Part shown: one piece after another, positions 25,563 to 54,046 of the stretch
How the letters are laid out: each line of letters starts with the position of its first letter
Numbering within the stretch: position 1 is the stretch's first letter
From: Candidatus Ruthturnera sp. Tsphm01
GTDB lineage: Bacteria; Pseudomonadota; Gammaproteobacteria; PS1; Pseudothioglobaceae
Length of the DNA: 64,000 nucleotides
Direction: 5' to 3'
Assembly: GCA_030142985.1 (NCBI GenBank)
Contig: CP125320.1
Span: 1,307,639 to 1,371,638, forward strand
Notes under the pieces: generated by a model
What the model was told of the DNA's origin: nothing
Databases searched by the model: none
Seen by the model: the letters and a program-made list of their open reading frames with translations, nothing else
Translations under genes and position numbers: made by a program

Positions 25563-26582
25563 TTATTTACGAACATTGATGTCAATGCCCTGTTTAAGCA
25601 ATTCTCTTTGTTTATACGCAAGATAGGCGTTATAAGTTGCAAATTCTTGATAAAAATCACCACTCACGTAGCGCAATACTTCTTGAAAATGAAAGTTGTA
25701 TAAAAATCCATCAATGCGGGTGATTTCATCGCCTTCATTAAACAAAACAATACCAGGTCGGTAATTGAGTTTGAGTTGTTGTACCCAGTCTTTAGGCGTG
25801 GTTTGGTTGCCTTTATTATCAATAATAGTTTGTGTGGAGTTAGCATCAAAACGCACCACACTAAAAGCGTTAAACTCATTGACGACAGCACTGTCTTTGA
25901 GCGTTGTGTTATAAAAATAAGCACAAGCGTCGCAACTTTTATCTTCAAAAATTATGGCTAATGGCGTTTTAAGAGTGGAAAAATCCTTAATTTTTTGAAA
26001 CATTTCGTGGTTTTGCGGTTGGTAATCGCTCGTTTTTTTGGTTGTTTCAATATATTGTGCTAAGGTTAACTCTGCATACGCTTTGCTATATATGTAGTCT
26101 AAAACTTTTTTCAATTTTTTAGGCTTGCGATAGCCATTTGTTCGTGCTACTACTTCATTTTTTTGATTTAAAAAAATCACAGTCGGTGTATATTGCACTT
26201 CGACTTGTGCTGCTAGTTCTTTCTCGCTCAACGATTGATTTTCATTAATTGCCACTTCTTTGTCGCCTCGAATATTAATAGCAATCACGTCAAAATGTTG
26301 CTGAATAAATTTTTTAAGCGACGGCTGATTAAAATCTTTCACCATTTGGTCGCAATAAGGACATTCATCTAAATGAAAGAATAACAACACATGTTTATTA
26401 TTCTGCTTTGCCTCATCAACATCGTCAGCAATTTCTAAAAAACCGTCTTTAAACCAGGGCAACATTGCGTGTGTTACACCGCCAGTAATTACGCCTGATT
26501 TTATAGGCGGTTGTGTATTGGCAATGCTAGTAAATGTTAATATTATCAAAATGATAATAGGTTTTAGGTTATAAATTTTCAT
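25563..26582 (-). CDS. Periplasmic protein with two thioredoxin-like domains (SoxW-like)
   Basis: The 339 residues begin with a signal peptide (IIILIILTFTSIANTQP). The first thioredoxin-like domain (about 50-165) has HLDECPYCDQM and the cis-proline YTPTVIFL. The second (about 195-310) has EDKSCDACAYFY and the cis-proline YRPGIVLF. The first half resembles SoxW-type thioredoxins of sulfur oxidisers, which keep Sox proteins reduced; that link is inference. The adjacent dsbD could supply its electrons. A plain thioredoxin-family annotation is the safe fallback. Confidence 0.8.
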   Translation of the reverse strand: MKIYNLKPIIILIILTFTSIANTQPPIKSGVITGGVTHAMLPWFKDGFLEIADDVDEAKQNNKHVLLFFHLDECPYCDQMVKDFNQPSLKKFIQQHFDVIAINIRGDKEVAINENQSLSEKELAAQVEVQYTPTVIFLNQKNEVVARTNGYRKPKKLKKVLDYIYSKAYAELTLAQYIETTKKTSDYQPQNHEMFQKIKDFSTLKTPLAIIFEDKSCDACAYFYNTTLKDSAVVNEFNAFSVVRFDANSTQTIIDNKGNQTTPKDWVQQLKLNYRPGIVLFNEGDEITRIDGFLYNFHFQEVLRYVSGDFYQEFATYNAYLAYKQRELLKQGIDINVRK

Positions 26583-26586
26583 GTGC

Positions 26587-26766
26587 TTACTCTTGTTGGC
26601 ATAATTTTAATATTTGTTGAGCGGTTACTTCCCCAATAAGGCGATGCTCTTTCCCGTAGTTATCAAATATAATCATTTCTGGAAGGTATTGAACGTTCAA
26701 TACTTGGATTAATTTTACCTCTCTATCAATGTTAATTTTAAAAAAGTTGAATTTTTTTGTATATTT
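26587..26766 (-). pseudogene. Truncated thioredoxin-like gene, 3' end only
   Basis: The last 60 or so codons read like the C-terminal half of a thioredoxin domain: FFKINIDREVKLIQVLNVQY, then LPEMIIFDNYG and LIGEVTAQQILKL, close in pattern to the end of the DsbD thioredoxin domain. The N-terminal half with the CxxC is missing: it breaks off at GAGACCTTTGCAAA, which looks like an IS end. The frame stays open to 26829, but those codons come from the inserted sequence. Confidence 0.7.
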
Positions 26767-26843
26767 TGAGACCTTTGCAAATGATTCGACATAATTATAT
26801 TTCCTTATGTAGAGTATTGATACTATCAAAATTGATAGTTTTT
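26767..26843. mobile_element. Possible IS5-type terminal remnant and hairpin
   Basis: GAGACCTTTGCAAA (about 26767) resembles an IS5-type terminal repeat and abuts the broken thioredoxin-like gene. Further on, ACTATCAA (26822-26829) pairs with TTGATAGT (26832-26839), followed by TTTTT, a small terminator-like hairpin reading on the plus strand. No transposase is left and the second end was not found. Confidence 0.35.
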
Positions 26844-26852
26844 AAGAATTAC

Positions 26853-27494
26853 ATGACTGTATCAACACAAGCCAGTCTTTACAGTCATATTGTCCAGTTG
26901 GAGTGGTGTACTAATATTGAGTAAGTTGCGTTTTGGACTTGTAGTGATGAATGGATTGGACGTTACAATCAACAGAACTATAGCCAAATTGACCCAAAAA
27001 TGCGTTATGCTGATACGCATCATATGCCCATATTTTGGGATGCTAGCCTGATTAAAGAACAACCAAGTCGTCAGTAATTGATCGAGATTAATTTTTGGCA
27101 AGATAGTTTGGAGATGGGAATAACTAGTGGCATTATCACCCCTATTCGTGGCGTTGCTAGTAGTAAAGGTTCATTGTGTGTTGTGTTTGACGCAAATACA
27201 CCGAGTGATGAATTGGCGTTATTGCCAAATTGTGAAGTTTGGACAATGTATTTGCACAACCATGTGGAAAGTCTTTATGTCTCAGTGCAGCTACAAACTC
27301 CGTTGTCTAGGTGTGAAACAGAAGTGCTGGAATGGACAGTATCTGGCAAAACCTGTAGTGAAATCGCACAAATTCTAATCATTTCTCAAAATACAGTTTT
27401 ATTTCATTTAACCAATCTACGCTATAAACTTGACGTGAATAATAAGCACCATCTTATTGCCCGTGCTTTGTCATTAGGCCTAGTTGAATTATAA
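26853..27494 (+). pseudogene. LuxR-family regulator with autoinducer-binding domain, inactivated
   Basis: One frame reads from ATG 26853 to TAA 27494 apart from two in-frame TAA codons at 26922-26924 and 27075-27077. Between them lie hallmarks of an acyl-homoserine-lactone-binding domain: DEWIGRYNQQNYSQIDP and HHMPIFWDASL. W, Y, D, P and W keep the exact spacing of W57, Y61, D70, P71 and W85 of TraR. After the second stop come GITSGIITPIRG and a LuxR HTH (LSRCETEVLEWTVSGKTCSE, IAQILIISQNTVLFHLTNLR). About 30 residues normally found ahead of the W are missing. A TTG at 27078 could start a 138-residue HTH-bearing remnant. Confidence 0.85.
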
Positions 27495-27505
27495 AACGGC
27501 ATTGT

Positions 27506-28081
27506 CTATTGGACAACCACTACCATTGCTGGACGAACCAAGCGACCATTTAAAGTAAAACCAAATTGTACGACTTCTAAAACAGAATTTGAGTCTTTGT
27601 CTGGCATGGGCATCATGGTAACGGCTTCGTGTAATTCTGGATTAAAGACTTCACCTTCTGGGTTAATCATTTCTACGCCAAATTTTTCTAGGGCTGAGAG
27701 GAAAACTTTATCGGTCATTTCTAGCCCCTCAACAACGTGTTTAACAGTGGCTTTTTCTTCTTGTGCGGTTTTAATGCCCATGCTTAACGAGTCTTTGACC
27801 TCAAGTAATGCTTTGACAAAACCATCCAATGCAAATTTGTGTGCATTTTCAACATCTTTGGCGTTGCGGCGTTTGAGGTTCTCCATTTCTGCTTGAGATC
27901 TTAGAAGTTTATCCCAATTATCTTTAGCAGATTGTTGTGCTTGGGCTAGTTGTTCTTGCAAATCATCATTTTTAGGCGTTTGTGAGGCAGCTTTAATGGC
28001 GGCTTCAATATCCTCTTTTTTTGTTGGGTTTTTTTTCTGGTTCTTATTTTCTGGTTTCTTTTTTGTCATTTTGTTGCTCAA
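27506..28081 (-). CDS. grpE: Nucleotide exchange factor GrpE
   Basis: GrpE releases ADP from DnaK. The 191 residues have a Lys-rich, disordered start, a long coiled coil (about 40-110, with [20 protein letters not shown]) and the beta-wing end ([13 protein letters not shown] and [20 protein letters not shown]). dnaK and dnaJ are not in the window. It diverges from nadK-recN, the arrangement known from E. coli and relatives. Its upstream region holds a promoter that could be read by either the housekeeping or the heat-shock sigma factor. Confidence 0.97.
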
Positions 28082-52326: not shown

Positions 52327-53528
52327 GTAATTACAATTTACCAGACGATAAAGGTCATTTTGAGCAATATGGTGGTGTTTTCATTGCAGAAACACTCATG
52401 ACAGCTGTTACTGAACTCAAAGATGCTTATGCTAAATATAAAGATGATAAAGATTTTATTCGTGAGTTTGAGCAGGATTTAAAGCATTATGTAGGTCGTG
52501 AAACGCCACTTTACTATGCACAAAATTTAAGCAAGAAGCTGGGCGGTGCTCAAATTTATCTTAAACGTGAAGATTTAAATCATACGGGCGCACATAAAAT
52601 TAACAATACCATTGGTCAAGCACTACTTGCTAAGCGTATGGGCAAAACACGCATCATTGCTGAAACAGGTGCTGGTCAGCATGGCGTGGCAACGGCAACG
52701 GTTGCAGCGCGTTTGGGGCTAGAATGTGTGGTTTATATGGGTGAGGTGGATGTGGCTCGCCAAGCGCTCAATGTGTTTCGTATGAAGTTATTAGGTGCCA
52801 CGGTTGTTCCAGTTACTTCAGGTTCAAAAACACTCAAAGATTCACTTAATGAAGCGATGCGTGATTGGGTGACGAATATTGATGATACATTTTATATTAT
52901 TGGCACAGTCGCAGGCCCGCATCCTTATCCAATGATGGTGCGAGATTTTCAAAGCATTATTGGCAAAGAAGCAAAAATACAATTTGCTAATCAAGTAGGT
53001 GGTCTGCCTGATGCTTTGGTGGCGTGCGTGGGTGGCGGTTCAAATGCGATTGGCTTGTTCCATACGTTTATTGATGATGCCTCAGTTGAAATTTATGGCG
53101 TTGAGGCGGCAGGATATGGCCTGGAAAAAGGTCCAACCGCACACGCCGCCCCACTTTGTGCAGGTAACGTGGGTGTGTTACACGGTAATCGTACTTATTT
53201 AATGGAGGATGAGAACGGGCAAATTATTGAAGGGCATTCAATCTCAGCAGGCCTTGATTATCCGGGCGTTGGCCCTGAGCATGCGTATTTAAAAGATAGT
53301 GGTCGTGCGCAATATGTGGCAATTGCTGATAAAGAAGCATTAGAAGCATTTCATATACTGACTAAAGTTGAAGGTATCTTGCCAGCACTGGAATCTTCCC
53401 ACGCCGTGGCGTATGGCATCAAACTTGCAAAAGAATTAGGTAAAGATAAACATATCATTATTAATCTTTCAGGTCGTGGTGATAAAGACATCCATACCAT
53501 TGCACAAATTGAAGGCATTGAGTTTTAA
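52323..53528 (+). CDS. trpB: Tryptophan synthase beta subunit
   Basis: TrpB joins indole and serine with PLP. The 401 residues show [20 protein letters not shown] with the PLP lysine (about residue 90), [17 protein letters not shown], the phosphate-binding [10 protein letters not shown] (about 233) and NLSGRGDKD near the end. trpA, its partner, is not in the window; a regulator-like gene follows instead, overlapping by 1 base. Confidence 0.98.
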
Positions 53529-54046
53529 TGAACATGTCTCAAAAAACTCAGAATACACCCTCTAAGCAGATTGTTTTGATGGCATTAATTTATATATTTT
53601 TTTCAAATGCTATACCATTTGTTAAGGATATTATAGAAGGTGATAGCCTTATGCACTTGCTACACGAAGGTGTTATTGCTTTTTTGTGTGTTATTGCAAT
53701 CTATATTGTTTGGCGTGAAATTATGATTAATAGCCGTTACACGCAGGATTTGCAACAGGATTTACAGCAAGCAAACAAGGATAGAAAAACCTATTCCAAA
53801 CAAATTAAAATTTTTAAGAATGAGTTATTTAAAGTTCTAGAAATTCAATTTAAAGGATGGTCTTTAAGCAAATCTGAACAAGAGGTGGCATTACTATTAT
53901 TAAAAGGCTTAAGCCTTGAAGAAATTAGCCAAATAAGAGGCACCAAGGAAAAAACGATACGCCAGCAAGCTTCGACAATTTATCAAAAATCTAACTTAAA
54001 GGGTCGGCACGAACTATCAGCCTATTTTCTTGAAGATTTATTCTAA
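53528..54046 (+). CDS. Membrane-anchored LuxR-type regulator
   Basis: The 172 residues have two membrane helices (VLMALIYIFFSNAIPFVKDI and EGVIAFLCVIAIYIVWREIM), a coiled coil (about 70-105, with DLQQDLQQANKDRKTYSKQI) and a C-terminal GerE/LuxR HTH (LSKSEQEVALLLLKGLSLEE, then ISQIRGTKEKTIRQQASTIY and QKSNLKGRHELSA). It could sense a membrane signal and act on DNA without leaving the membrane. The target is unknown. It starts at the trpB stop (TAATG) and may be made on the trp message; ATG 53534 is an alternative start. Confidence 0.8.
   Translation: MNMSQKTQNTPSKQIVLMALIYIFFSNAIPFVKDIIEGDSLMHLLHEGVIAFLCVIAIYIVWREIMINSRYTQDLQQDLQQANKDRKTYSKQIKIFKNELFKVLEIQFKGWSLSKSEQEVALLLLKGLSLEEISQIRGTKEKTIRQQASTIYQKSNLKGRHELSAYFLEDLF

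Follow-up and report, generated by a model that had tools for sequence, protein, structure and literature searches.

A pseudogene of a LuxR solo receptor, broken at least twice independently within one genus

Within a 64,000-nucleotide stretch of DNA, hereafter the window, a LuxR-type reading frame on the plus strand (26853..27494) is interrupted by two stop codons. Does it represent a signal receptor that this lineage has lost, and if so, when was it lost and what might it have sensed? Our analyses showed that the locus is a true pseudogene, that its decay is fairly recent, and that the gene was a LuxR solo. We hold with high confidence the overall explanation, in which a gene for a solo LuxR-type transcription factor lost its function as the genomes of this genus were reduced.

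The interrupted frame and its lesions

The frame starts with the ATG at 26853, ends with a terminal TAA at 27492-27494 and contains, as originally predicted, in-frame TAA codons at 26922 and 27075. When both stops were read as X, PF03472 (Autoind_bind) matched with 56.9 bits (cut-off 23; positions 40-147 of the 149 of the profile) and PF00196 (GerE) with 55.2 bits (cut-off 23.5). Failure to find an autoinducer-binding domain by profile search had been named as evidence against this reading; both this domain and the predicted helix-turn-helix (HTH) were recovered well above their cut-offs. At the DNA level, the search of the whole genome (a single contig of 1,523,273 bases, scored 100% complete) gave 57.5 bits (E 1.0e-15) for PF03472, and the pseudogene was its sole match at E ≤ 10. 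GerE had eight matches in the same genome at E ≤ 10, five of them above the cut-off; the luxR pseudogene ranked second, behind a response regulator at 1.448 Mb. A match due to chance is excluded. Elsewhere in the window, a weak match to the LuxR-type HTH (29.6 bits) was observed in a 172-residue protein with a hydrophobic N-terminal half, encoded on the plus strand (53528-54046) directly after a trpB-like gene.

The predicted equivalence of a W-Y-D-P-W series to TraR W57, Y61, D70, P71 and W85 holds, the same residues being aligned at all five positions. Together with G113, E178, L182 and G188, they make up the nine residues that we take to be the LuxR hallmarks in TraR numbering, and all nine are identical in the window, in two intact orthologues described below, and in TraR. 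The positions of TraR Y53 and T129, which we assume to belong to the ligand pocket, are occupied by Cys in the window and in both orthologues.

Alignment to the two intact relatives showed that both stops replace sense codons and that a single in-frame gap of 93 bases, near codon 24, removes 31 residues, close to the 30 or so that had been estimated. The remaining gaps inside the frame are small and all multiples of three, and zero frameshifts were found; the first 39 positions of the PF03472 profile are absent. The frame is divided into an N-terminal fragment of 23 codons plus the first TAA (26853..26924, + strand), which corresponds in alignment to the N-terminal end of the intact orthologues, a ligand-domain fragment (26925..27077, + strand) carrying the equivalents of the five TraR residues and ended by the second TAA, and an open remnant of 138 residues from a TTG codon (27078..27494, + strand), which contains the rest of the ligand domain and a complete GerE HTH. 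With two stops and this deletion, the window copy lacks the intact reading frame of a LuxR-type receptor. Because the 31-residue deletion takes away the beginning of the ligand domain, a normal fold would not be expected even if both stops were read through.

Ancestral position and separate breakage among genus mates

Among the 83 genomes of the family, the window's own included (the order level holds the same 83), PF03472 was found above cut-off in only three, namely the window's genome (G000), G054 and G069, and a wide presence in the family was thus rejected. Intact orthologues of 241 residues were found in two of the 82 other genomes, G054 and G069. Between them, these genomes correspond to the public records JAQRMT010000031 (Gammaproteobacteria MAG3) and JAQRMS010000047 (Candidatus Thioglobus sp. 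MAG2). The two proteins share 73% identity, and each is 58-59% identical to the window frame. A collection of public genome contigs contained no relatives beyond these two, a viral contig collection contained zero relatives, and plasmid matches were distant, all below 60% identity.

In all three genera, the luxR-type gene is divergently oriented from a thioredoxin-like gene (PF13098; intact in the window, 25563..26582, − strand), and the order aroQ-dsbD-thioredoxin-like-luxR is common to the three genomes, dsbD and aroQ being names assigned from sequence. The neighbour on the other side is grpE in the window (27506..28081, − strand), adk in G069 and a transposase-like gene in G054, whereas G051, which has no luxR, carries adk and grpE after the thioredoxin-like gene. 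A search for an intact orthologue between grpE and the thioredoxin-like genes had been suggested; in both genomes the orthologue was found beside the thioredoxin-like gene, and grpE is not adjacent to it. Since the intact orthologues stand beside the same thioredoxin-like gene, the window copy is a true pseudogene that still occupies the ancestral site. Between these two divergent genes, we also observed an 80-residue remnant of a second, small thioredoxin (26587-26829, − strand; PF00085, 26 bits) that is missing the N-terminal active-site part; in G059 (L034), a counterpart whose frame is open for about 112 residues and includes WCGSC adjoins the thioredoxin-like gene.

PF03472 was absent from all 11 remaining genomes of the genus. 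When all 11 grpE loci were searched for 1.5 kb on each side, scraps of the luxR 3' end were detected beside grpE in four (G036, G039, G040, and G041), and no luxR scrap was accepted in the other seven; one weak match in G038, on the opposite flank of grpE (E 0.012), was taken as chance. All four scraps have a net gap of 2 bases at about the same place, and those of G036, G039, and G041, whose alignments extend further, share a second such gap; the window has neither. In G040, 134 bases comprising the luxR promoter and 5' end (L068:2209-2342) lie beside a broken thioredoxin-like gene at 0.26 Mb, away from grpE and the 3' scrap at ~1.23 Mb of the 1.45-Mb contig. An early stop of its own lies within this 5' scrap, which runs on into sequence that is deleted in the window. 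The gaps absent from the window, together with a 5' scrap that reaches the deleted sequence, indicate that the lesions of the window are private to its lineage, and the luxR-type gene was thus broken at least twice independently in the genus. The intact syntenic orthologues and the differently broken scraps corroborate the decay that had been proposed from the window alone. The thioredoxin-like neighbour is itself broken in G040 (L068:2415-3388) and in G039 (L037).

Its position and the scraps show that luxR dates back at least to the last ancestor shared by the window's genome and the four scrap-bearing genus mates. As to its origin, the gene may have reached three lineages of the family by transfer instead of descending from the family ancestor, a reading compatible with the pseudogene. 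The presence of PF03472 in so few genomes would agree with such a transfer, as would the trees. In the accC tree (29 genomes, G046 being left out), genera g1, g8 and g9 were each recovered as a group, two of them starred, whereas in the tree of the thioredoxin-like gene (19 rows) g1 remained together but G069, of g9, was placed with three g8 genomes. This placement, at moderate support (90/94), suggests that the thioredoxin-luxR pair may have moved within the family. However, the identical place beside thioredoxin-like-dsbD-aroQ in all three genomes, and the remnants in the same place in several genus mates, which put the gene early in the genus at the latest, make us regard transfer as rather unlikely.

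Candidate signal, operator, and mode of decay

A check for a luxI-type synthase in the genome had been suggested, and none was found: PF00765 had 0 matches in the window's genome at E ≤ 10, and none in G054 and G069 at E ≤ 0.01. The luxR-type gene is, on this ground, a solo receptor, which would respond to signals from other bacteria, or to a ligand other than an acyl-homoserine lactone (AHL), and not to its own quorum. That its ancestor sensed AHLs is plausible given the pocket residues that were kept. The sole LuxI-type synthase among the 83 family genomes was observed in G071 (L025:1453-2013; PF00765, 98 bits), near transposase-like frames; this genome is without a PF03472 receptor and was scored 4% contaminated.

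An 18-base dyad, ACTATCAAAATTGATAGT (8-2-8; 26822..26839), is located 13 bases upstream of the start codon and is a candidate operator of lux-box type, its size being presumably that of a tra/lux-box. Its 8-base arms are perfect in the window, which contains eight perfect 8-2-8 dyads of this kind, and imperfect in G054 and G069. When 10 genomes were searched with the dyad consensus at 0-1 mismatch, a single match was obtained in each of G000, G054, and G069. G040 gave two, of which one is exact and at luxR, and the six others gave none. Among 12 loci of the thioredoxin-like gene, the dyad was found with 0 mismatches at all four that keep the luxR 5' end, whereas within the nearest 400 bases of the eight without it (G057, G056, G052, G049, G059, G071, G051, and G039) the best sites had 5 or 6 mismatches. 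The dyad thus tracks luxR and not the thioredoxin-like gene, which fits an autoregulatory operator and makes this role likely, although its conservation could partly reflect mere relatedness of the flank. A wider regulon was not supported, as the counts at 3 mismatches were like or below those of a backwards control (53:53 in G000, 48:138 in G040, 34:32 in G054, and 38:36 in G069); only the site before luxR stands out.

We propose that an ancestral solo gene, standing in the order aroQ-dsbD-thioredoxin-like-luxR, would have encoded a receptor that most likely bound an AHL or a similar molecule from other bacteria. The receptor would also have dimerised and occupied the dyad ahead of its start codon, thereby controlling its own expression and perhaps that of the divergent thioredoxin-like gene. 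With two stops and without the start of the ligand domain, the gene of the window lineage cannot yield a functional receptor; in other members of the genus, it was broken separately and is nearly gone. A broader proposal is more tentative: the gene may have been an AHL-eavesdropping solo that two or more branches of the genus (genomes of 1.0 to 1.6 Mb) broke separately, its loss marking the step from life among other bacteria to life in a host. The intact orthologues in Thioglobus-type genomes might sense foreign AHLs and exert their effect at one dyad operator, which the divergent thioredoxin-like gene would share.

The substitutions agree with a recent decay or with a constraint that was weak all along. 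With synonymous sites near saturation, pN/pS is a rough ratio, and it was 0.23 between the intact pair and only moderately raised, at 0.34, between the window and each intact gene. A relative-rate comparison with the neighbouring thioredoxin-like gene (46:27 versus 43:44 unique residues) was not significant (P = 0.11). Drift alone is thus no proof of decay, which is provided by the stops, the deletion, and the scraps in the genus mates.

It could be argued that the 138-residue remnant is translated from the TTG at 27078 and acts as a shortened, ligand-independent HTH regulator, since its frame is open, its GerE domain is complete (56.4 bits), the TTG stands immediately after the stop codon, and LuxR proteins that lack their N-terminal part can show constitutive activity. 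However, no purine-rich ribosome-binding site is visible upstream of this TTG, and the genus mates have either lost this stretch or retain it with gaps that break the frame. Moreover, the HTH has not been spared: the last 65 columns hold 12 residues unique to the window, as opposed to 1 and 2 for the two intact genes, and pN was 0.21-0.23 for the window, versus 0.09 between those genes. A preserved function of the remnant is thus unsupported by these counts, no special preservation was observed, and we consider such a regulator very improbable. That the gene is in truth intact and was misread or misassembled, with which the absence of frameshifts would agree, appears hardly credible, given two stops and a clean 93-base gap in a single-contig genome scored as complete, and the loss of the gene in the genus mates as well; a sequencing error had been judged unlikely from the outset.

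Comparison with known systems

The bacterium looks like a symbiont with a shrinking genome, and the loss of luxR, while real, is ordinary reductive evolution that left an ordinary pseudogene. Judging by the genome sizes and the Thioglobus relative, it may be a symbiont of the vesicomyid-clam type. A report on a vesicomyid clam symbiont describes a genome of 1.03 Mb with 47 pseudogenes, and the words "quorum" and "luxR" are absent from its main text (PMC7826175). In the partly accessible literature on symbiont quorum sensing, LuxR loss, and clam-symbiont genome reduction (including PMC13345370), nothing on this gene was found, and no publication mentioning JAQRMT010000031 or JAQRMS010000047 was found. 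Our results place the loss of a signal receptor in order within a lineage undergoing genome reduction, and identify two genomes that offer an intact receptor, together with its likely operator, for experiment.

The autoinducer-binding and GerE domains are likewise found in RhlR and in the LuxR solos SdiA and QscR, which resemble this gene in having no luxI in the genome but differ in that the window copy is inactivated. An intact orthologue matched RhlR chains at 2.7e-20 (the best being an engineered variant), QscR at 9.1e-17, and SdiA at 4.3e-15. The intact orthologues are not SdiA (67 and 57 bits against an NCBIfam equivalog cut-off of 350) and not TraR (51 and 52 bits against 250). Their best NCBIfam match, over nearly the full length, was to the PA1136-type regulators (TIGR03541; 77 and 75 bits), which indicates a likeness and not membership, the equivalog cut-off of 215.6 bits being far above these scores. 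The locus also parallels the pseudogenes of reductive symbiont genomes in its stops, its deletion, the scraps left at the old position, and the lineage-specific lesions.
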